A DNA stretch of 64,000 bases from contig NZ_RBAN01000007.1 in assembly GCF_003626655.1 (NCBI RefSeq), positions 124,001-188,000 of the forward strand. The letters run 5' to 3'. The notes under the pieces are model-generated. The model ran no database searches, was not told the origin of the DNA, and was given only the letters and a program-made list of their open reading frames with translations. Source of the stretch: Micromonospora costi. Its GTDB lineage: Bacteria > Actinomycetota > Actinomycetes > Mycobacteriales > Micromonosporaceae. The position numbers and the translations under genes are program-made. Position 1 is the first letter of the stretch; each line of letters opens with the position of its first letter. Below, piece after piece: positions 38,583 to 63,244 of the stretch.

Positions 38583-39632
38583 TCACAGCCGCACCACCCA
38601 GCGGGGGTTGCCCCGGGCCCAGTCGGGCATGCGGGCGCCGCTCACGGCCGCGAAGAGGCCGTCGCCCCCGTTGTCCAGCACGACGTACGACACCTCGTCG
38701 ATGACCTGCGGGTACGACGGCACCTGGATTCCCTGCAACGCGTTGGCGGGTAGCCCGCGCAGCGCGAAGACCAGGTCGTCGAGGGGAGCGCCGTTGGTGT
38801 CCACGGTCAGTGACTCGCCCACCGCACGGATGACCTGGTCGAGCTTGACCGGGTTGTTGCGCAGGTTCGTCTCGCCGGCCCGGTCCAGCAGCGCCCGGAG
38901 GAGTTGCTGCTGGTGCCGCTGCCGGTCGTAGTCGCCCCCGGGCAGGTCGTAGCGCTGGCGGACGTAGTCCAGCGCCTCGGCGCCGTTCATCTGCCGGCAG
39001 CCGGGGCTGAAGACCCGGTTGGTGTGGATCGAGCGGACCTCCCGGTCCACGCACATCCGGACGCCGCCGAGCAGGTCGACCACCTTCCGGATCCCGGAGA
39101 AGTCGATCAGGGCGGCCCCGTCGAAGCGGACCCCGGTCATCCGGGTCAGCGTGGCCGACAGCAGTTGGGCGCCCGAGCGCCCGCCGCCGCCGTGTTCGTA
39201 CGCCGCGTTGATCTTGTCCTGACCGCCGCCGTATCCGTGCCCGGCGGGAATGGCGACGAGCAGGTCCCGGGGGATCGACACGAGGTACGCCTCCCGCAGC
39301 CCGGCCGGCACGTGCACCATGAGGATGGTGTCGGCGCGCTGCTCCGAGGTGGTGTCGTTGGGCCGCTTGTCGGTGCCGATCAGGAGGTAGTTGAGGGGGC
39401 CGGAGAGGTTCGGCCGCGCGGTGCGCGCGCCCGGGTCGAGCAGTTCCTCCCGGGCCACGCTGCGGTCGTACCGGTCGGTGAGGGCGTGGAGCCCGAACAC
39501 GGCGAGCCCGGCCAGCACCACGAGGGTCAGGCCGATCCCCAGCAGGATGCGGGGCCAGCGGGCGCGCCGCGGCCGGGCGGCCGGGGCATCCGCCTCGACC
39601 CCCTGCGCGTCGTCCCGGCCCGACCTGGACGT
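38583..39632 (-). CDS. LytR-CpsA-Psr (LCP) family cell-wall glycopolymer ligase, first of three
   Basis: A LCP protein that transfers glycopolymers from lipid carriers to peptidoglycan at the outer face of the membrane. Core motifs: NYLLIGTDKR, RADTILMVHV, VSIPRDLL, and MNGAEALDYVRQRYDLPGGD. The membrane helix (ILLGIGLTLVVLAGLAVFG) is complete only if translation starts upstream of the first GTG (39521). The frame is open to 39665 with no ATG, GTG or TTG, but GGGGAGGAAAC stands directly before an ACG at 39632, giving MSRSGRDDAQG if read as a start. ACG initiation is my best reading; GTG 39521 is the conventional one. Confidence 0.8.
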   Translation of the reverse strand, partial: TSRSGRDDAQGVEADAPAARPRRARWPRILLGIGLTLVVLAGLAVFGLHALTDRYDRSVAREELLDPGARTARPNLSGPLNYLLIGTDKRPNDTTSEQRADTILMVHVPAGLREAYLVSIPRDLLVAIPAGHGYGGGQDKINAAYEHGGGGRSGAQLLSATLTRMTGVRFDGAALIDFSGIRKVVDLLGGVRMCVDREVRSIHTNRVFSPGCRQMNGAEALDYVRQRYDLPGGDYDRQRHQQQLLRALLDRAGETNLRNNPVKLDQVIRAVGESLTVDTNGAPLDDLVFALRGLPANALQGIQVPSYPQVIDEVSYVVLDNGGDGLFAAVSGARMPDWARGNPRWVVRL

Positions 39633-39875: not shown

Positions 39876-41093
39876 TCACTTCCGGGTGGAGATGACCTCC
39901 GGGTGGGTGAACACGAACTCGGCGAGCTTGTCCTGCTTGACGGCCCGGAACATGTCCAACGTCTCGGCGCTGAGCACCTCCCGGCCGTTGCCGTTGCCGT
40001 TGAAGGTGCCGTTGTTCGTCTTGAGCATGGTGAGGTCGTTGGCGGTGACGCCGCGCATGGTGAAGACGAAGTCCTCGATCGCGGCCCCGCCGGTGTCCAG
40101 CACGAACGCCTTGCCGGCCGCCTTGATGAGCTGCTGGAGCTTGAGCGGGTTGGTCAGCATGCCCCCTTCGGTGGCCTTCTTCGCCATCGCCTTGATGAGC
40201 TGCTGCTGGTTCGCCTGCCGGTCGTAGTCGCTGTTGGTGAGGCCGTAGCGCTGCCGGGCGTAGTCGAGCGCCGCCCAGCCCTCCATCTCCTGGCAGCCCT
40301 TCTTGTGCACCACCGGGGTCATCTTCTTGCCGGTCTTCTTGGCGTCCGCGTTCCACATGGGCTTGCCGTCGACGTACGACATGTGGTGCGACTTGACCTC
40401 CTGCTTCACGCAGATCCGCACGGTGCCCAGGGTGTCGATGACGTTCTTGAACCCACCGAAGTTGATGATCGCGGCGCCGTCGAAGCTCACGCCGGTGAGC
40501 TTCTTGATGGTCTGTGCCATGAGCTGCGCGCCGCCCTCCCAGCCACCGCCGTTACGGGCGCCGATCTGGAAGGCCGCGTTGATCTTGTCGGTGCCGCCCG
40601 GGTAGTTGCTCTTCGCGAACGGCGGGATCTGCGCCTCGGTGTCCCGGGGAATGGAGATCAGGTACGCCTGGTCGTGCGTGGCCGGGATGTGCAGCACGAT
40701 GATCGAGTCCGAGCGGACGTCGTCGGCCGCCCACCGCTCCCGCGCGTCCACGCCGAGCAGCAGCATGTCGATCGGGCCGTCCAGGCTCGCGCCGCCCTCG
40801 GCGTCGGACTTGCCGGCGTCACCGAGCAGGTTCCGCTGGGCGATGTTGCCGGTCGCCTGGCTGATCAGCGCCTTGCTGCCGACGATGGCGATCCCGCTGG
40901 TCAGCATGAGCACCGCGCCGAACACGACGGTGAGCCGGGCCCAGAGCGGGTCCCGGCGCCCGGGACGCTTCTTCGGAGGTACGGGATCGGCGCCACCGCG
41001 GGTGCGGGCCTGCGGCGGGATGGTCGCGGACCCGCTGGCGGGCGGGCGGGTGGAGTCCAGCGACGGAGGGCGACGGCTGGTCTGAACCGGCAT
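39876..41093 (-). CDS. LytR-CpsA-Psr family cell-wall glycopolymer ligase, second of three
   Basis: A 405-residue LCP protein with a Pro/Arg-rich cytoplasmic tail (1-52), one membrane helix (LTVVFGAVLMLTSGIAIVG, about 54-73) and the extracellular catalytic domain: DMLLLGVDARE, RSDSIIVLHIPATH, LISIPRDTEAQIPP, and MEGWAALDYARQRYGLTNSD. A Lys-rich insertion (ADAKKTGKKMTPVVHKKGC) within the catalytic domain is unlike its neighbours. GGAG 5 nt before ATG 41093. The 207-bp gap upstream holds TTTCC-type repeats and probably its promoter. Confidence 0.9.
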   Translation of the reverse strand: MPVQTSRRPPSLDSTRPPASGSATIPPQARTRGGADPVPPKKRPGRRDPLWARLTVVFGAVLMLTSGIAIVGSKALISQATGNIAQRNLLGDAGKSDAEGGASLDGPIDMLLLGVDARERWAADDVRSDSIIVLHIPATHDQAYLISIPRDTEAQIPPFAKSNYPGGTDKINAAFQIGARNGGGWEGGAQLMAQTIKKLTGVSFDGAAIINFGGFKNVIDTLGTVRICVKQEVKSHHMSYVDGKPMWNADAKKTGKKMTPVVHKKGCQEMEGWAALDYARQRYGLTNSDYDRQANQQQLIKAMAKKATEGGMLTNPLKLQQLIKAAGKAFVLDTGGAAIEDFVFTMRGVTANDLTMLKTNNGTFNGNGNGREVLSAETLDMFRAVKQDKLAEFVFTHPEVISTRK

Positions 41094-41300: not shown

Positions 41301-42533
41301 TCAGCCGCCGTCGGTGTTCTTCGGTTGGTTGGCCTTGACCCAGTCCGCCATCGTGTCGGCCGACATCGCCTGGTACATGGACAGGGCCTTCTCCCGGTCG
41401 GAGACCACCACCGACTCACCGTCGATCGTGTCGCTGCCCGAGTTCGGGCTGGTGACGAACGTCAGGTTGTCACCGCGCAGGCTGCGGAACTGCACCGCCA
41501 TGTCGACCAACGAGAACGTCCGGTCGACGGTCACGGCGTCGGTCACCGACTGGAGGAAGGCGTTCAGCTTCCTCGGGTTGCTGAGCGTGCCGCTGCTCGC
41601 CGCCTTGTCCAGCAGAGCGCGCAGGAACTCCTGCTGGTGGCGCATCCGGGCGAAGTCGCCGTCCGGGAACTGCTTGCGCTGCCGGATCCAGTCCAGCGCC
41701 TCGGCGCCATCCATGTGGTTCATGCCCTTAGTGAAGGTCCGGTAGGGCTTGTGGATGGACGTGATGGTCCGCTCGACGTTCAGGTCGACCCCGCCCAACG
41801 CGTCGGTGACCTGCTTGAAGCCGGCGAAGTCGATCGACATCACATGGTCCAGCCGGACGTCGGTGAAGCACTCGACGGTGCGTACCGCGAGCGGCAGCCC
41901 ACCGAAGGCGAAGGCCGCGTTGATCTTCGCCCGCCGGCCCGACCCGCAGTCGGCGCCGGCGCTCTCGGGAATCGGCACGTACAGGTCGCGCGGAATGGAG
42001 ACCAGGTAGGCCGACTGGTGGTCAGCCGGGATGTGCATCACGATGATCGTGTCGGCCCGCCACTTGCCGGCCTGGTCGACCGGGGCGTCCGGGTCCCGCG
42101 AATCGGTGCCGACCAGCAGGATGTTGAGCGCGCCCTCCACCGGCTTGGCCGGACGCCCGCCGGTGATCTCAGCGAACGGGTCGGTGCGGGCCAGGTCGTT
42201 GTCGAGGTTCCGCACGTAGAGCCAGGCGCCGACTCCGCCCAGAAGCGCGAGCACGAGCACCGCCACGCCGGCGACCAGGCCGATCCGGCCCCAGCGCGGC
42301 CGTGGACCGCGCCGGCCGGGCCCGCCGCCTCCGCCGGGACCGCCCGGCCCCGTGGGACCCGTCGGGCCGGCTGGCCCGCCGCCCAGCGGCTCCTCGTCGT
42401 ACGACGGGTAGCGGCGCGTGTCCGACGGTCGCGCACGCCCGGCGGCACCCCGGGCGGGGCCGGGAACCGACGCGCGCCCGGCGCTACGGTGCAGGTACGG
42501 GTGCGGGAGCTCGGCGGGGGAGGTCGCTGACAT
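41301..42533 (-). CDS. LytR-CpsA-Psr family cell-wall glycopolymer ligase, third of three
   Basis: A 410-residue LCP protein. The cytoplasmic tail (1-82) is rich in Gly/Pro with GPTGPTGPGGPGGGGGPG; a membrane helix (IGLVAGVAVLVLALLGGVGAW, about 84-104) leads to the catalytic domain: NILLVGTDSRDP, RADTIIVMHIPADH, VSIPRDLYVPIPE, MDGAEALDWIRQRKQFPDGD. A Cys pair (GADCGSG and TVECFTD) may form a disulfide. Upstream lies the nucleotide-sugar epimerase gene, so these wall-ligation genes sit beside precursor supply. The three LCPs are diverged enough to have different polymers. Confidence 0.9.
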   Translation of the reverse strand: MSATSPAELPHPYLHRSAGRASVPGPARGAAGRARPSDTRRYPSYDEEPLGGGPAGPTGPTGPGGPGGGGGPGRRGPRPRWGRIGLVAGVAVLVLALLGGVGAWLYVRNLDNDLARTDPFAEITGGRPAKPVEGALNILLVGTDSRDPDAPVDQAGKWRADTIIVMHIPADHQSAYLVSIPRDLYVPIPESAGADCGSGRRAKINAAFAFGGLPLAVRTVECFTDVRLDHVMSIDFAGFKQVTDALGGVDLNVERTITSIHKPYRTFTKGMNHMDGAEALDWIRQRKQFPDGDFARMRHQQEFLRALLDKAASSGTLSNPRKLNAFLQSVTDAVTVDRTFSLVDMAVQFRSLRGDNLTFVTSPNSGSDTIDGESVVVSDREKALSMYQAMSADTMADWVKANQPKNTDGG

Positions 42534-55259: not shown

Positions 55260-56831
55260 TCAGTACGCGCCCTTGCGGGCCAGCACGACGCCCACGGTGC
55301 GCCACAGGATGCTGAGGTCGTACGCGAGCGACCAGTTGTCGACGTAGTAGAGGTCGAGCCGGACCGCCTCATCCCAGGACAGGTCGGAGCGGCCGGAGAC
55401 CTGCCAGAGGCCGGTCATACCCGGACGGACCAGCAGCCGGCGGCGCACGTCGCCGAGGAAGTCGCCGTCGTCGGCCGGCAGCGGGCGCGGCCCGACCAGC
55501 GACATCTCGCCCCAGAGCACGTTGATCAACTGGGGCAGCTCGTCCAGCGAGGAGGCACGCAGGAAGCGGCCCACGGGGAAGACCCGCGGATCCTGCTTCA
55601 TCTTGAAGAGCATGCCGTCGGTCTCGTTCTGGTCGACCAGGCTGGCCAGGCGCTCCTCGGCGTCGACGTACATGGTCCGGAACTTCCACACCCGGAAGGT
55701 GCGGCCCTCGTGCCCCACCCGCGGCTGCCGGAAGAAGACCGGCCCCGGGTCGGAGATCTTGATGGCCACCGCGATGGCCACGAACACGGGGACCAGCACG
55801 AGCAGCCCGAGCCCGGCGGCGACCCGGTCCATGAGGTTCTTGGCGAGCAGCGCCGGGCCCGAGAGGGTGGGCTCCTCGACGTGCAGCAGCGGCAGGCCCT
55901 CGATCGGGCGGATGTGCACCCGGGGGCCGGCGATGTCGGTGAGCTGCGGCGCGACGACCAGGTCGACGCCGGAGCCCTCCAGCTGCCAGGCCAGCCGGCG
56001 CAGCTCGCCCGGCTCGGCGCTGGCCGAGCCGCACACCGCGATGGTGTCGCCGCCCACCTCGCGGACGAGGGCGAGCACGTCGCGGCCCGCGAACACCGGG
56101 ACGGGGGTCTGCATGCCGCGGGCCGCCGCGTAGCCGTCGGTGAGGTGGATGGCCACCGGTACCAGGCCGGCGGCCGGGTTGCGGGTGACCGCCGTGTAGA
56201 CCTCCAGGCACTCCGGCAGGGTGCCGACCAGCACCATCCGGTGCCCGCCCTGACCGATGTTGCGCCGGACCACGTGCAGCACGAAACGGGCCAGGATGCG
56301 GCCCAGCAGGATCAGGAGCAGGGCGCCGAGCAGCGCCGTGCCGACCGTGTAACGGGACAGGTCGGTCTTGGTGGCGAAGGCCAGGAACGAGACCGTGGCG
56401 GCCACGGCCACCCCGGCCCGGATCACCCGCTTGAACTCGTCCGGGCCGAGCCCCAGGTAGCGCCGGTCGTACGCCCGGTTGCCCCAGAGGATGACCACCC
56501 AGCCCAGCGGCAGCAGCACGAACGCCACCGTGAAGAACCAGGTCGGGTCGTTCTGGGCGTTGTAGAAGCCGGCGCGGGCCTGGTCGAAGGTGTGGATCGC
56601 GGTGAAGCTGGCGAACGCCGCCGCCGCGAAGTCGAGCAGCAGGAGGATGGCGGTGTAGGGACGGTGCCACCGGGAGACGCGCCGGCGGGCCCGTGCCCAC
56701 GCCGACCGGGGTACGCCGTTGTGCGACGGCGGCGTCGGCGGCTGGATCTCGAAGCTGTCGACGTGCCGCACGAGTTTGCTCCGGCCTTCGTTGGTTACCG
56801 GGCGCTGGAGGCTTGTCGTCACCTCACCCAT
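55260..56831 (-). CDS. Polyprenyl-phosphate glycosylphosphotransferase (exopolysaccharide-type sugar transferase)
   Basis: A 523-residue membrane enzyme (WbaP/CpsE-like). Five hydrophobic segments (about 65-340) surround a CoA-binding-like domain (HRMVLVGTLPECLEVYTAVT), and the C-terminal bacterial sugar transferase domain carries KISDPGPVFFRQPRVGHEGR, FRVWKFRTMYVDAEERL, SLDELPQLINVLWGEMSLVG and PRPLPADD. It loads the first sugar phosphate onto undecaprenyl phosphate for a surface polysaccharide. Starts at 56843, 56831 and 56822 are all possible; ATG 56831 is a compromise. The 267-bp gap upstream (to 57098) holds only promoter-like sequence. Confidence 0.88.
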   Translation of the reverse strand: MGEVTTSLQRPVTNEGRSKLVRHVDSFEIQPPTPPSHNGVPRSAWARARRRVSRWHRPYTAILLLLDFAAAAFASFTAIHTFDQARAGFYNAQNDPTWFFTVAFVLLPLGWVVILWGNRAYDRRYLGLGPDEFKRVIRAGVAVAATVSFLAFATKTDLSRYTVGTALLGALLLILLGRILARFVLHVVRRNIGQGGHRMVLVGTLPECLEVYTAVTRNPAAGLVPVAIHLTDGYAAARGMQTPVPVFAGRDVLALVREVGGDTIAVCGSASAEPGELRRLAWQLEGSGVDLVVAPQLTDIAGPRVHIRPIEGLPLLHVEEPTLSGPALLAKNLMDRVAAGLGLLVLVPVFVAIAVAIKISDPGPVFFRQPRVGHEGRTFRVWKFRTMYVDAEERLASLVDQNETDGMLFKMKQDPRVFPVGRFLRASSLDELPQLINVLWGEMSLVGPRPLPADDGDFLGDVRRRLLVRPGMTGLWQVSGRSDLSWDEAVRLDLYYVDNWSLAYDLSILWRTVGVVLARKGAY

Positions 56832-57098
56832 GTCCTCCCGCATGACACGCGCCGCTCACTCATCGTGAGGGGCCCGGGTCGCCCACCGTCCCAGTCTCCC
56901 ACGCGGGGCCCGACCGGGCGCCGGACCCGAAGGACTTTGCGCCCCGCTGGTGCCGGCGGGATCTGGCCGGCTCCACGCCACATCAGAAGCCGGGGACCGA
57001 GCCACTATACCGATGGATGGCGCGCTCGGAAGAGTCGCCGAGCAGGACTTGTCGCGATATCACGGCGATTTCACTCAGTAACCGGCGGGTGGCGTTAC

Positions 57099-57983: not shown

Positions 57984-59348
57984 GTGAGAATCGTGGTGGC
58001 GCACAACCGGTACCGGGAGGCTCAGCCCTCCGGGGAGAACACGATCGTCGACGCGGAGATCAACCAGCTCACCGCGGCCGGCGTCGAGGTGGTGCCGTTC
58101 ATCCGGAGCTCGGACGAGATCCCCACGTTGCCGCTGGCCGCCAAGGCGCTGCTGCCGGTCTCGCCGATCTACGCGCCGCGCGCCCAGCAGGAGCTGAGCC
58201 GCTTGATCACCGAGCACCGGCCGGACGTCCTGCACCTGCACAACCCGTACCCGCTGCTCTCGCCCTGGGTGGTGCGGACCGCCCACCGGCACGGTGTGCC
58301 CGTGGTACAGACGGTGCACAACTACCGGCAGGTCTGCTCCTCCGGCCTCTACTTCCGGGACGGGATGATCTGCCAGGACTGCCGCGGCCGGGCGCTCGGC
58401 GTACCGGCGATCGTGCACCGCTGCTACCGGGGCTCGCGCGCGCAGAGCGCGCTGATGGCCACCACGCTGGCCGTGCACCGGCCCACCTGGCGTTCGGTCG
58501 ACCGGTTCGTCGCGCTCACCTCGGCGGTCGCCGCGCACCTGCGCGACTACGGCATTCCGGACGACCGGATCGTGGTCAAGCCGAACGGCATCCCGGACCC
58601 GGGACGCCCCGCGCCGCTCGGCGACGGCTTCCTCTTCCTGGGCCGGCTCTCCCCCGAGAAGGGGCTGGACCTGCTGCTGGACGCCTGGCGACGGCACCCG
58701 GACGGCGCGCTCGGCCCGCTGCGCATCGCCGGCGACGGCGAGCTGCGCCCGCTCGCCGAGGCGGCCGCCGCCGAGCGGGCGGACGTGACCTTCCTGGGCC
58801 CGTTGGACCGCGCCGGGGTCCGCGCCGCCCTCGAATCGACCGCCGTGGTCCTCGCCACCTCGACCTGGCACGACGTGCTGCCCACCGTGATCATCGAGGC
58901 CCTGGCCAGCGGCCGGCCCGTGCTCGGCACCGCGCTCGGCGGCATCCCGTACCTCGTCGGTGCGGACACGCCACGCGTACCGGCCGGCACCGGCCCCGCG
59001 GAGGTCGCCTCCGCCGTGGCGCCACCGGCCGGTCCCGTGCCGTCGCCTGGGCCGCTGACCGGATCCGTGCCGGCGGTCGAGTCCGTGCCGGCCTCCGGGT
59101 CTGGGTCGGCGGCCGGGCCGCTGGGCGGCGCCGCCGTGCCGGCCGGGATCGAGGCCGGCGAGGCCGGCTGGGTCGTGGCGCCCGAGGCCGCCGCGCTGGC
59201 CGCCGCCCTGCCGCTGGCCCGCGCGGGCGCGGCGGTGCTGTCCCAGGGTGCCCGGCTGCGCTACGAGCGCACCTTCCACCCGGACGTGGTCACCAAGCAG
59301 CTGATCGACATCTACGCCGGCGTCTCCCGCGCCGCGCGCCCCTCCTGA
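57984..59348 (+). CDS. GT4 family glycosyltransferase with a low-complexity insertion
   Basis: A 454-residue GT-B glycosyltransferase. The acceptor domain opens IVVAHNRYREAQPSGENTIV and holds a Cys-rich patch (VCSSGLYF, ICQDCRG, HRCYRG) seen in a subgroup of actinobacterial GT4 enzymes; the donor domain shows FLFLGRLSPEKGLDLLLDAW and VLATSTWHDVLPTVIIEALA, with the EALA nucleotide-sugar Glu. A Pro/Ala/Gly/Ser insertion (about residues 329-389) splits the usual GGIPYLVG-to-GWVV junction. It probably builds a surface polysaccharide together with the sugar transferase encoded nearby. GTG 57984 is supported by TAGCCT 8 nt upstream. Confidence 0.88.
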   Translation: MRIVVAHNRYREAQPSGENTIVDAEINQLTAAGVEVVPFIRSSDEIPTLPLAAKALLPVSPIYAPRAQQELSRLITEHRPDVLHLHNPYPLLSPWVVRTAHRHGVPVVQTVHNYRQVCSSGLYFRDGMICQDCRGRALGVPAIVHRCYRGSRAQSALMATTLAVHRPTWRSVDRFVALTSAVAAHLRDYGIPDDRIVVKPNGIPDPGRPAPLGDGFLFLGRLSPEKGLDLLLDAWRRHPDGALGPLRIAGDGELRPLAEAAAAERADVTFLGPLDRAGVRAALESTAVVLATSTWHDVLPTVIIEALASGRPVLGTALGGIPYLVGADTPRVPAGTGPAEVASAVAPPAGPVPSPGPLTGSVPAVESVPASGSGSAAGPLGGAAVPAGIEAGEAGWVVAPEAAALAAALPLARAGAAVLSQGARLRYERTFHPDVVTKQLIDIYAGVSRAARPS

Positions 59349-59895: not shown

Positions 59896-60621
59896 TCAGC
59901 GGAGGGAGGCGCGGGCGCTGAAGGCGATGCTCGCGAGCAGGAAGCCGCCGTTGACCACCGTGAACGCCACCATCACCCAGAGCGTCAGCGCGGGGGCGAA
60001 CAGCAGCACCAGGGCGGCCACGAAGATCACCGCGCCGTAGTCGCGGACCAGCTTCACGAGCCGCACCGGGAGTGAGGTCGAGGTCACCATGCTCGCCGCG
60101 TTCGGGCCGGCCTGCATCACCGAGGTGACCAGGTTGACCATCCAGGTGCCCGCGAAGGCCGCGACCAGCCAGGTCGGGGTGGACGGGAACTGCGCGACCG
60201 CGGTCGCCGCGAGCGCCGCGACGAGGGCGATCTGGGCCGCGACGTCGCAGAGCACGTCGACCCGCGCGCCGGCCGCGCTGCCCTGGCCGGTCACCCGGGC
60301 GAGCTGGCCGTCGGCGCAGTCCAGGGCGTACGCCACCTGCCAACCGACCAGCGCGAGCAGCCCGACCACCCAGGCCGGCACGCGGTCGTCGGCGACCGGG
60401 CCGGCGAGCGCGACCACGGTGACCGACGTGGCGAGCCCGAGCACCAGGTTCGTGAGCGTCAGCGCGGTGGGGCGCAGCCCCAGCCGGTGCGCGGCGACCG
60501 CGAACGCGGCCCCCAGCCACTGGCTGATCGACTCGCTGAACAGCCCGCCACCGCGGTTCGTCCGGTGGAAGTGGACGGCGGTGGGACGGGAGGTGTCAGC
60601 CAAGGTAATCGCGGATTGCAT
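59896..60621 (-). CDS. CDP-alcohol phosphatidyltransferase family enzyme
   Basis: A 241-residue membrane enzyme with about six helices. The catalytic motif D-x2-D-G-x2-A-R-x8-G-x3-D-x3-D is complete: it runs from DCADGQLARV through GARVDVLCD. It would join an alcohol to a phosphatidyl or polyol-phosphate group from a CDP-activated donor, releasing CMP. The start overlaps the end of the dehydrogenase gene by 26 nt. In context it is probably the last step of a short pathway beginning with the cytidylyltransferase, so the lipid or polymer made may be unusual. The family contains both phosphatidyl- and polyol-transferring members. Confidence 0.88.
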   Translation of the reverse strand: MQSAITLADTSRPTAVHFHRTNRGGGLFSESISQWLGAAFAVAAHRLGLRPTALTLTNLVLGLATSVTVVALAGPVADDRVPAWVVGLLALVGWQVAYALDCADGQLARVTGQGSAAGARVDVLCDVAAQIALVAALAATAVAQFPSTPTWLVAAFAGTWMVNLVTSVMQAGPNAASMVTSTSLPVRLVKLVRDYGAVIFVAALVLLFAPALTLWVMVAFTVVNGGFLLASIAFSARASLR

Positions 60622-61663
60622 CGGCGTAGTCTGCCAGCCGTGCCCGGACCTCGGTAGGCGACATCGCGAGGTGTTCGAGGATGGTGTAGCGGTCCGGTCG
60701 GGTGCTCGGCGCGTACATCACGGCGTCAGCGAACTGGTCGTCGCTCAGCCCCAGCTCGGCGGGGGTGGTGGCGAGGCCGTGGCGGTGCAGGCACCGGGCG
60801 AGCTGGCCGAACCGCTCCGGCTCGCCCCGCAGGAACGTGCAGAACAGCGCGCCGAGGCCCGCCTGCTCGCCGTGGGCGGCGGTGCCCGGGAAGAGGTGGT
60901 CGATGGCGTGCGAGATCTCGTGGTCGCCGCCGCTGGCCGGGCGGGTCGACCCGCACACCGAACTCGCGAGCCCGCCGAGGATCAGCGCCTCGGCCAGTGT
61001 GGTGAGGAACCCGTCGTCGGTGATCTTGCCCGGGTGGTTGAGCAGCGCCTCGGCGCCGGACCGGGCCAGAGTCACGGCGAGGCCGTCGATCGGCTCCCCG
61101 CGGACCTCGTGGGCCAGCTCCCAGTCCGCGCACGCGTTCAGGTTGCTCACCGCGTCCCCGATGCCGGCCTGGGTCTGCCGGTCCGGGCCGTTCTCGACGA
61201 AGTCCAGGTCGACGATCACCGCGATCGGGATGTGGACGCCGTAGGAGCCCTTGCCGCCCTCGTGGTCGAGGGAGGCGGTCGGCGAGGCGATCCCGTCGTT
61301 CGCGAGGGAGGTCGCCACGGTCACCATGGGGATGCCGTACCGGGTGGCGGCGTACTTGGCCGTGTCGATCGTCTTGCCGCCGCCGATGCCCACCACCGCG
61401 TCGTACGACCGGGCCCGCAGGCGGTCGCCCAGCTCGTTCGCGGCGTCGATGGTGCCGCCGGCCACGGTGAACACGTCGGCCGAGCCCAGGCTGGGCCGGC
61501 ACAGCTCGACGATCTTCTCGCCCTGACCGGGGCCGACGACCACCGCCACGTCGCCCCCGGAGGAGATCCGCCGGTCGGCGAGGAGGGGGCCCAGGTCGGC
61601 CACCGCGCCCCGCCGGACCTCGATCAGCAGTGGGGTGTTGACGGTCCGGGCTAGTAGCGGCAC
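60596..61663 (-). CDS. sn-Glycerol-1-phosphate dehydrogenase/iron-containing alcohol dehydrogenase family (AraM/EgsA-like)
   Basis: A 355-residue dehydrogenase. NAD binding is through VVGIGGGKTIDTAKYAA; SLANDGIASPTASLDHEG matches the EgsA/AraM signature; the metal ligands are Asp in AGIGDAVSNLNA and His in DHEISHAIDHLFPG and AHGEQAGLGALF. Family enzymes reduce dihydroxyacetone phosphate to sn-glycerol 1-phosphate, the archaeal-type enantiomer; others act on related polyol phosphates. It overlaps its neighbours by 13 and 26 nt, so the three products act together. GTG 61663 is the natural start inside the end of the upstream gene. Confidence 0.85.
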   Translation of the reverse strand: MPLLARTVNTPLLIEVRRGAVADLGPLLADRRISSGGDVAVVVGPGQGEKIVELCRPSLGSADVFTVAGGTIDAANELGDRLRARSYDAVVGIGGGKTIDTAKYAATRYGIPMVTVATSLANDGIASPTASLDHEGGKGSYGVHIPIAVIVDLDFVENGPDRQTQAGIGDAVSNLNACADWELAHEVRGEPIDGLAVTLARSGAEALLNHPGKITDDGFLTTLAEALILGGLASSVCGSTRPASGGDHEISHAIDHLFPGTAAHGEQAGLGALFCTFLRGEPERFGQLARCLHRHGLATTPAELGLSDDQFADAVMYAPSTRPDRYTILEHLAMSPTEVRARLADYADAIRDYLG

Positions 61664-62382
61664 GCGATCTCCCGGGCACGGGCCAGGTCGGCGTGGTTGT
61701 CGACCTCGACCCAGGACACGTCGCCGATGGGCGCCGCCCGCACCTCGCCGCCCCGGTCGGCGAACTCCTGGTAGCCGTCCTCGTAGTAGAGGTTCGGGTC
61801 GCGCCGCCAGGTCGCCTCCAGCGCGTCGGCGAGTGCGTCGGCCACCTGCGGCTCGATCAGCGTCGCGCCGATGTACTCCCCGTACGCCTCGCCCGGGTCC
61901 ATGATCTTGGTGATCCGGGTGAGCTGGCCGGCCGCGTCGAAGGTGGTCTTCATCTCCTCCTCGGCCAGCGGCTTGAGGGTGTCCACCGCGAGCAGGATGC
62001 CCGGCCCCCGCTCGGCGAGCAGCGTCTTCTCCACGCTCACCGGGTGCACGGTGTCGCCGTTGACCAGCAGCACGCCCCGGCCGAAGTGTTCCCGCGCCAG
62101 CCAGAGCGAGTAGGCGTTGTTCCACTCCTCGGCCCTGTCGTTGTGCACCAGGGTGAGGGTGACGCCGTACCGCTCCTCAAGCTCCGCCTGCCGGGCCCGC
62201 ACGGCGTCCGCCGCGTAGCCGACCACGATCACGATCTCGGTGAGCCCCACCTCGGCGAGGTTCTTCAGCGCGATGTCGAGGATCGTGACGTCGCCGTCAA
62301 CCGGCACGAGCGCCTTGGGCAGGGTGTCGGTGTACGGGCGCAGCCGGCGTCCGGCCCCGGCCGCGAGCACCATCCCGATCAT
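61651..62382 (-). CDS. Sugar/polyol-phosphate cytidylyltransferase-like NTP transferase
   Basis: A 243-residue nucleotidyltransferase. The signature is MVLAAGAGRRLRPYTDTLPK (residues 4-23), followed by VHNDRAEEWNNAYSLWLARE, VLLVNGDTVHP and VEVDNHADLARA near the end. The NNAxSLWLA segment is typical of LicC-like phosphocholine and inositol- or glycerol-phosphate cytidylyltransferases, so it may make a CDP-polyol for the downstream CDP-alcohol transferase. ATG 62382 has GGGAGG 8 nt upstream and a possible TATCCT box about 40 nt upstream. It is the first gene of the three-gene operon. Confidence 0.85.
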   Translation of the reverse strand: MIGMVLAAGAGRRLRPYTDTLPKALVPVDGDVTILDIALKNLAEVGLTEIVIVVGYAADAVRARQAELEERYGVTLTLVHNDRAEEWNNAYSLWLAREHFGRGVLLVNGDTVHPVSVEKTLLAERGPGILLAVDTLKPLAEEEMKTTFDAAGQLTRITKIMDPGEAYGEYIGATLIEPQVADALADALEATWRRDPNLYYEDGYQEFADRGGEVRAAPIGDVSWVEVDNHADLARAREIACRY

Positions 62383-62473: not shown

Positions 62474-63244
62474 TCACCCGGGGAGCGCGGCCAGGTCGGC
62501 GAGGACGGTCAACCGCTCCTCCGGCGTCAGCGCCCCGTACGGCCCGGCCGCCCGGCGGTCGGTCTCCAGGTCGATGGCCAGCCGCTCGGGCCCGGGTGGC
62601 AGGGCGGCCACGCTGCGCGCGGTGTGGCCGGCGGCGGTCCAGGCGGCGGCGTGCGCGTCGGCCCGGTGGTGGTGCAGGGCGTCGAGCCGGTCGAGCAGCA
62701 GCACCCCGGCCGGGGTGCCGTCCGGCTCGTAGGGCGGCGCGGTCGCGGCGAACGCCGCGCCGGCCGCCGCGGGCTGTTCGGCGTCGAGCACCAGGGCGTA
62801 CGCCACCAGCCGGCCGAACGCCTCGACCAGGCGCACCACCCGTTCCTCGTGGCCGGCCCACAGCTCGGCGGTCACCTCGGCGTGCAGCCCCCGCAGTTCG
62901 TCGAGGAAGGCCAGCCCCCGCTCGGTGGCCGCGATCCCGCCGTCCGGTAGCCGGTGCAGCGTCCCGTACGCGACCTGTTTGTCCAGTGCTCTGCGGCACT
63001 CGGCCGGATCCCGGTAGCGGGTGACGGCCGCGAACCCCGGCTCGTCGACGATCCCGCCGGGCTCGGCCAGCCGGGTGCGGAACTCGACCAGGAAGCCGGT
63101 CGCGGCCGGTCCGCCGTACCGCCGGCCCAGCTCGGCGCCGCCCCGCCGCCGGCCCGCGTCCAGGGCGGCGGCGACGGCCCGGTCGACGGCCGGGGCCACC
63201 AGCCCGGCGAACCGGTGCGGGGCCAGCTCGACGGCGTGGTTCAC
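62474..63244 (-). CDS. Helical protein, possible winged-helix (SCO6745/SalK-like), coupled to a NUDIX gene
   Basis: A 256-residue soluble protein. A winged-helix-like part (about 78-125: VTRYRDPAECRRALDKQVAY then GGIAATERGLAFLDELRGLH) resembles the SCO6745/SalK group of actinobacteria. The C-terminal half (about 180-250) contains LDRLDALHHHRADAHAAAWT and an acidic end (LTPEERLTVLADLAALPG). No catalytic motif is visible. The GTG at 63244 overlaps the stop of the NUDIX gene (GTGA), so the two are translated together. Confidence 0.6.
   Translation of the reverse strand: MNHAVELAPHRFAGLVAPAVDRAVAAALDAGRRRGGAELGRRYGGPAATGFLVEFRTRLAEPGGIVDEPGFAAVTRYRDPAECRRALDKQVAYGTLHRLPDGGIAATERGLAFLDELRGLHAEVTAELWAGHEERVVRLVEAFGRLVAYALVLDAEQPAAAGAAFAATAPPYEPDGTPAGVLLLDRLDALHHHRADAHAAAWTAAGHTARSVAALPPGPERLAIDLETDRRAAGPYGALTPEERLTVLADLAALPG

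Follow-up and report, generated by a model that had tools for sequence, protein, structure and literature searches.

In a 64,000-nucleotide stretch of the Micromonospora costi genome (hereafter the window), three overlapping genes on the minus strand make up a real, conserved and translationally coupled gene set. The first, CYT, encodes a LicC/PntC/IPCT-like nucleotidyltransferase, predicted to be a cytidine triphosphate (CTP):glycerol-phosphate cytidylyltransferase; the second, AraM, a predicted AraM-like NAD(P)-dependent sn-glycerol-1-phosphate (G1P) dehydrogenase; and the third, P3, a cytidine diphosphate (CDP)-alcohol phosphotransferase (CDP-OH). The recurrence of this triad is not due to chance, and its AraM and CYT pair belongs to an older surface-polymer system. 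With middling confidence, we propose that the pair makes CDP-sn-1-glycerol for envelope polymers, with P3 as one user of this donor and a teichoic-type locus elsewhere in the genome as the other.

Conservation of the coupled triad

CYT (62382-61651; 243 amino acids, ATG start) is followed on the minus strand by AraM (61663-60596; 355 amino acids, GTG start) and then by P3 (60621-59896; 241 amino acids, ATG start), the start codons being those chosen by a simple gene caller. The CYT/AraM overlap spans 13 nt (61651-61663) and the AraM/P3 overlap 26 nt (60596-60621). An original prediction, made from the letters of the window, had placed three open reading frames here with these overlaps and had named a DGIASP signature, an Asp and two His ligands, NNAYSLWLA and a CDP-OH catalytic motif, all of which were recovered. 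We read NDGIASP, Asp170, His248 and His264 in AraM, NNAYSLWLA in CYT, and in P3 the full CDP-OH signature DCADGQLARVTGQGSAAGARVDVLCD, which has the form D-x2-DG-x2-AR-x8-G-x3-D-x3-D and whose eight residues are invariant across 27 sequences; the meanings that we give to NDGIASP, the metal residues, NNAYSLWLA and the CDP-OH motifs are presumed. Pfam assigns PF00483 (50.8 bits) and PF12804 (40.5 bits) to CYT, PF13685 (Fe-ADH_2, 110.4 bits) to AraM and PF01066 (36.4 bits) to P3, all above curated cut-offs.

A similarity scan of named genomes returned 55 loci, the nearest relatives being Micromonospora loci with AraM identities of up to 92%. As the original prediction had expected of related genomes, the three genes are conserved together within Micromonosporaceae, with the order CYT-AraM-P3 kept in 54 of the 55 loci. 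In 45 of the 54 ordered loci, a GT4 glycosyltransferase and an EPS-type sugar transferase also match the window in position and orientation, and several of the triad loci without this full neighbor set end at contig edges. The 13-nt overlap between CYT and AraM recurs in 51 of the 55 loci, and among 32 wider AraM loci it is found in 20, with no CYT called beside AraM in eight and another spacing in four.

The sole exception to the gene order, L065, lies on a contig labeled Gammaproteobacteria and is without P3. Its CYT and AraM show 67% identity, its AraM falls within the actinobacterial AraM clade, and a gene read as TagD-like stands just upstream; either mis-binning or transfer could account for its origin. 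At three other loci (L132, L201 and L202), CYT is 94–95% and P3 86–90% identical to the window genes and AraM only 74–75%; the middle gene alone looks to have been replaced in these congeners, and the L132 AraM groups with the Actinoplanes-type AraM (100/99 fork). TGA signals in the AraM of six genomes were followed by tblastn (query residues 1-350 or 1-351; L194-L199), which met no internal stop; an in-frame internal TGA was therefore rejected, and we take the signal for the ordinary stop codon that ends the frame. An in-frame TAG is reported in the AraM of genome G436.

Co-occurrence was followed across a panel of 101 Micromonosporaceae genomes, in which P3 (E 1e-10) was found in 87, AraM (E 1e-20) in 68, the TagF polymerase (E 1e-20) in 52 and DUF5941 (E 0.001) in 56, 53 of the last lying above the cut-off. 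Every one of the 68 AraM genomes has P3, and in 54 the two genes are adjacent on the same strand. CYT lies beside AraM in 55 of the 68, as counted through cross-matches to altCYT, and direct reading of a further six genomes (G436, G478, G498, G529, G517 and G443) places it there too. This altCYT is a second LicC-like cytidylyltransferase, ~30% identical to CYT, and it is present in all 19 of the 87 P3 genomes that have no AraM, adjoining P3 in 15; P3 therefore seems to need a maker of CDP-alcohol, and not AraM as such. The 14 P3-less genomes contain neither AraM nor an intact altCYT, the broken altCYT of G451 being left out of the count. When one genome was taken per genus as a rough control of relatedness, AraM or altCYT accompanied P3 in 38/38 genomes versus 0/6 without P3. 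Mutual exclusion of altCYT and AraM was rejected, both being present in 14 of the 68 AraM genomes.

Within the AraM-less genomes, P3 is located in polysaccharide clusters. A membrane protein beside it was read as a Wzx-like 'flippase', for which Pfam gave no family in the one case tested, and a Wzy-like protein nearby has a weak O-antigen-ligase Pfam match.

Export-linked AraM and CYT loci

Outside the triad, at least one of three partners (a TagG-like permease, another CDP-OH transferase or TagF) lies no more than 7 kb away in 25 of 30 AraM loci; over the same distance, a TagG/Wzm-type ABC permease is found in 19, a B-type CDP-OH enzyme in 13 and an A-type in 14. Six of the seven Streptomyces-like AraM loci bring together a DUF5941-CDP-OH enzyme (A), CYT, AraM, a second CDP-OH enzyme (B), a GT2 and TagG/TagH-like ABC genes, the seventh being an extra AraM copy without CYT. 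Deeper actinobacterial AraM loci carry this Streptomyces-like set with variations: the G386 cluster (L105) also includes a GT2-TagF fusion, and in the distant genome G121 (L111/L087) TagF lies beside CYT and AraM. Deep members of the Micromonosporaceae have CYT and AraM followed by a Wzm-type permease, with P3 elsewhere, and in G491 the pair is accompanied by a Wzm permease, Wzt and a DUF5941 enzyme.

The AraM tree sets a clade of Wzm-type loci (98/99) against a triad clade (90/91) that includes G455 and L065. The CDP-OH tree, of which the topology alone was used, places B-type enzymes in one clade (100/99) and P3 in another (90/91) that is apart from A and B. These separate clades led us to reject orthology between P3 and the CDP-OH enzymes of the Streptomyces cluster. 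Triad P3 sequences largely form one fork (91/89) inside the AraM-less P3 lineages, with the triad row L047 outside it. The group labels of this tree are partly wrong: the 'P3_altCYT' group includes the triad loci L066 and L067 as well as several rows in which no altCYT adjoins P3. Given the separate AraM clades and the position of the P3 fork within AraM-less lineages, our reading is that the CYT and AraM pair joined an existing P3 within the family. The original prediction, whose interpretation is partly supported, could not see this history of an older pair tied to teichoic-type export with P3 added within Micromonosporaceae, nor the 19 of 101 genomes in which P3 goes with a different cytidylyltransferase and no AraM.

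Two side observations concern the Streptomyces-like genomes. Their AraM loci adjoin genes read as hopanoid synthesis, and in G334 a second AraM without CYT (L099) lies beside genes read as rplU, rpmA and obg, with GT2-TagF ~5.6 kb away.

A second locus of this genome, on contig 1 (~1978389-1984247; L128/L129), holds GT2-TagF, DUF5941-CDP-OH, Wzt and Wzm. The GT2-fused TagF polymerase (PF04464, 387.7 bits) stands beside ABC_tran and ABC2_membrane genes, the permease being cut by the region edge in this genome and the ABC2_membrane Pfam match coming from a congener. Both a TagF-type polymerase and a TagGH-like exporter, the pairing looked for as a sign of wall teichoic acid, are therefore present in the genome, and a second, weaker TagF-type domain is found on contig 1 at 827592 (125.8 bits). 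DUF5941 occurs in 24 of the 25 genus genomes searched and TagF in 26/26. Across the family panel, AraM is present in 46 of the 52 TagF genomes and altCYT in the other six, and in G474 and G449 altCYT directly follows GT2-TagF, which suggests that LicC-like enzymes feed TagF. TagD (TIGR01518) scored above its cut-off in none of the 101 family genomes and weakly in seven, with 3 of 14 controls positive, and this genome gave no match at E 1e-15, in a search that did not extend to other makers of CDP-glycerol such as the FAD-synthetase-type enzyme named in PMC8262930; the missing TagD, like the pairing of TagF with AraM or altCYT, speaks for the donor proposed below. From these other genomes we infer the link between the AraM and CYT locus and the TagF locus of M. 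costi.

Predicted donor, its users and the alternatives

In the proposed route, AraM would convert dihydroxyacetone phosphate to sn-glycerol 1-phosphate, and CYT would combine this with CTP to give CDP-sn-1-glycerol, which would be a shared donor for envelope polymers (wall or capsule glycopolymers). P3 would then transfer glycerol-1-phosphate from cytidine monophosphate to a membrane-bound acceptor of the adjacent EPS-type surface-polysaccharide pathway, comprising the GT4, the sugar transferase and LytR-CpsA-Psr (LCP) genes, and the second user would be the teichoic-type set, with its GT2-TagF polymerase, DUF5941-CDP-OH enzyme and Wzm/Wzt exporter. Most likely, the gene set is a source of CDP-sn-1-glycerol for envelope glycopolymers, with P3 as a lineage-specific user whose acceptor is putative. 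The data themselves establish the families, the residues kept, the coupling, the co-occurrence and the second locus, whereas the substrate, handedness and acceptors are predictions. The original prediction had combined a G1P-type dehydrogenase, a LicC-like cytidylyltransferase and a CDP-alcohol transferase into a route to a CDP-polyol and an envelope phosphodiester, and at the level of sequence these families and this logic appear sound. Of the two products that it allowed, the wall polymer is now the better supported and the non-standard phospholipid the less. An archaeal-type ether lipid was rejected as the main role because PcrB (PF01884, GGGPS) is absent from 26/26 genus genomes, with controls positive in 7 of 14.

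As judged from its matches, AraM is closest to G1P dehydrogenases and not to glycerol dehydrogenases. Its best NCBIfam model is NF002022 (G1P dehydrogenase, 242.9 bits), followed by glycerol dehydrogenase at 69.5 bits, and its best PDB sequence matches are 3ce9, a 'glycerol dehydrogenase' entry, and the archaeal G1P dehydrogenases 4rfl, 4rgq and 5fb3. It aligns end to end with the archaeal enzymes and shares their metal residues and NDGIASP-type loop, and it combines the Fe-ADH_2 domain, the metal Asp with two His and the DG[IL].SP loop by which we recognize the EgsA/AraM family. All of 92 distinct relatives share Asp123, Ser127, Pro128, the GGG loop, His248 and His264. Asp170 is found in 90 of them and replaced by Glu in the other two, and position 126 holds Ala (74 relatives), Cys (16) or Ser (two).

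For CYT, the best PDB sequence match is LicC (1jyk, E 4e-15), in an alignment that spans NNAYSLWL; it has both the NTP_transferase fold and the LicC-like substrate-side motif that characterize the LicC/IPCT type. The CYT model (pLDDT 94) gives VIA Z scores of 28.1 to PntC (6pd2), 25.5 to the T. maritima IPCT (4jd0) and 25.1 to LicC; in VIA an absent row is no evidence. PntC is a phosphonate cytidylyltransferase, and its place at the top of this ranking, together with genes read as phosphonate synthesis near AraM or altCYT in G455 and G486, would fit a pair that makes a non-glycerol product, such as an activated phosphonate or choline-like group, with AraM a misread alcohol dehydrogenase. This is very improbable in our judgment, since AraM scores only 18.7 bits against the phosphonate Fe-ADH model TIGR03405 and such genes were seen in two genomes only, no search aimed at PepM having been made. 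By reading, the loci concerned (L164 of G455 and L190 of G486) carry PepM with a cytidylyltransferase part, a decarboxylase and an Fe-ADH near AraM or altCYT and TagF.

P3 has the CDP-alcohol phosphotransferase signature together with PF01066, and its model (pLDDT 84.6) gives VIA Z scores of 19.3 to AF2299, 17.8 to IPCT-DIPPS and 15.3 to CPT1, with lower values for mycobacterial PgsA1 (14.2) and PGP synthase (10.7). The nearest folds, AF2299 and IPCT-DIPPS, are CDP-alcohol enzymes and score above the users of CDP-diacylglycerol, so that the ranking of the models leans towards a CDP-polyol donor, although a shared fold shows no substrate. By sequence, the best PDB matches are instead CEPT1 and CPT1, both diacylglycerol users, and P3 might on that account be a Kennedy-type lipid enzyme, transferring glycerol-1-phosphate from CDP-1-glycerol to diacylglycerol and so yielding, by another route than the usual one, phosphatidylglycerol whose head group has the ordinary handedness, or a related lipid; the head group of phosphatidylglycerol is given as a Gro1P unit in PMC8262930. 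We find such a role distinctly unlikely, given that the CPT1 fold ranks below AF2299 and DIPPS, that the conserved neighbors are sugar-polymer genes, and that the genome has seven other PF01066 genes, two of them strong, of the usual PgsA-type length, leaving no evident need for it.

The fold ranking is also what suggests a soluble acceptor for P3, for example inositol phosphate, from which a glycerophospho-compatible solute would be made much as archaea make glycerophosphoinositol. IPCT-DIPPS ranks second among the folds, the DIPPS model is the best NCBIfam match of P3, and the archaeal synthesis uses CDP-1-glycerol (PMC8262930). However, that match reaches 28.6 bits, far under the model cut-off of 580, the GT4 and EPS sugar transferase neighbors are conserved in 45 of 55 loci, and P3 keeps to polysaccharide clusters in the AraM-less genomes; we give this solute pathway only a slight chance.

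Several observations weigh against the proposal that AraM and CYT supply CDP-sn-1-glycerol to both P3 and the teichoic-type locus. The AraM score is below the NF002022 equivalog cut-off of 413, so that its name holds at the level of the family and not of the equivalog. The CYT model also matches UDP-glucose pyrophosphorylase (VIA Z 26.1), and since its fold matches mix CTP, UTP and dTTP enzymes, the fold fixes neither nucleotide nor substrate. The 19 P3 genomes without AraM indicate that the P3 donor need not be an AraM product. In this assembly the TagF locus is not on the contig that carries the AraM and CYT pair, and the association with TagF by genus is weak (21/21 versus 17/23, p 0.02), 22 of the 68 AraM genomes being without TagF at E 1e-20 and seven without both TagF and DUF5941. 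Cps3D is reported to be inactive with pure CDP-1-glycerol; in favor of the proposal, another TagF-like polymerase, Cps7D, can build polymer from it (PMC8262930), an earlier study having described use of the racemic donor by both Cps polymerases (PMC5974469). Lastly, position 122 of AraM is occupied by Asn in 62 of the 92 relatives but by His in the other 30, which suggests that the substrate may differ among them.

The alternation at residue 122 would also fit a pair whose product is a different CDP-polyol, with CDP-ribitol or a related pentitol as the most plausible candidate; the substrate of AraM would then be a ketopentose phosphate, and the TagF-types would be ribitol-phosphate polymerases. 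PF04464 includes both glycerol and ribitol polymerases. We hold a pentitol to be unlikely, as AraM aligns along its whole length with archaeal G1P dehydrogenases and keeps NDGIASP and the metal residues, and no AraM-family member is known to reduce ketopentose phosphates. In its favor, Streptomyces griseus is described as having a wall teichoic acid built of ribitol phosphate and ending in glycerol phosphate (PMC13274773).

Related pathways and neighboring genes

The CDP-2-glycerol pathway of the pneumococcal capsule resembles the CDP-sn-1-glycerol route proposed here in supplying a surface polymer with an unusual glycerol phosphate that has been activated by a nucleotidyltransferase, and differs in its reductase and transferase families and in the isomer. 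The Bacillus AraM-PcrB ether-lipid pathway likewise has a same-family G1P dehydrogenase in a bacterium; there PcrB is the known partner of AraM, whereas here PcrB is absent and the dehydrogenase is coupled to a cytidylyltransferase. With the TagD/TagF/TagGH wall teichoic pathway, M. costi shares GT2-TagF and a TagGH-like ABC exporter in the genome and LCP genes in the window, but no TagD was found, the donor would come from AraM and the LicC-like enzyme with a predicted sn-1 rather than sn-3 configuration, and there are extra CDP-OH enzymes. The archaeal IPCT-DIPPS and AF2299 systems (di-myo-inositol phosphate and glycerophosphoinositol) also join a cytidylyltransferase to a CDP-alcohol transferase acting on a CDP-polyol and include the nearest P3 folds; in the triad the genes are separate, the neighbors are sugar-polymer genes and the acceptor is putative.

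Closest in gene content is Streptomyces, where a 2026 synteny study places araM with tagG, tagH, a CDP-alcohol transferase, a GT2 and a nucleotidyltransferase and links this region with the making of teichoic acid (PMC13118837). The gene families are the same, but in Micromonosporaceae AraM and CYT stand apart from the exporter and next to P3, which belongs to another CDP-OH clade. The Streptomyces synteny is thus already known and the parts are ordinary; the predicted donor is what is unusual. A 2016 paper had already noted AraM in actinobacteria (PMC5059525), and a 2021 paper describes free glycerol 1-phosphate and CDP-1-glycerol as likely missing from most bacteria by far, ascribing the sn-1 units of bacterial surface polymers to other donors (PMC8262930). 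Our search of the open-licence literature found no paper joining a G1P dehydrogenase, a CDP-alcohol phosphatidyltransferase and a cytidylyltransferase, and 'CDP-1-Gro' there concerns capsules or mammalian glycans, as far as titles tell.

More tentatively, in many actinobacteria AraM and a LicC-type CYT may replace TagD, with CDP-sn-1-glycerol as the direct donor of archaeal-handed wall or capsule polymers, and Micromonosporaceae may have wired a second, unrelated CDP-alcohol transferase to it. If true, a conserved pair making CDP-1-glycerol would contradict the described absence of this compound from bacteria, and archaeal-handed glycerol phosphate would be activated by CTP for surface polymers, a route usually assumed to be missing in bacteria. 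Bacterial AraM would gain a role beyond ether lipids, the source of the donor would be explained for TagF-bearing genomes without TagD, and the handedness of actinobacterial wall polymers would be a direct test.

Around the triad, the original prediction had pointed to a GT4 and a surface-polysaccharide sugar transferase, both of which are found. The GT4 glycosyltransferase (57984-59348, plus strand; PF13692 and PF13439) lies 547 nt from P3, and the EPS-type polyprenyl glycosylphosphotransferase (55260-56843, minus strand; TIGR03025 at 403.5 bits, above its cut-off) ~3.05 kb from the triad, each being present in 46 of 55 loci of the called set. Three LCP genes are located farther away on the minus strand, at 38583-39521 (PF03816, 131 bits), 39876-40925 (125 bits) and 41301-42266 (146 bits). 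The LytR-CpsA-Psr family attaches polymers to peptidoglycan, and these three genes are possible late partners of the pathway. On the same strand as the triad, a gene at 62474-63244 stands 92 nt upstream of CYT and has no Pfam match; genes resembling it seem to precede CYT in L132, L171 and L191. In the spacer between the GT4 and P3 (59349-59895) there are several ACAACTTCCNGGAAGTTGT-type palindromes as well as a direct repeat of 133 nt (78%).

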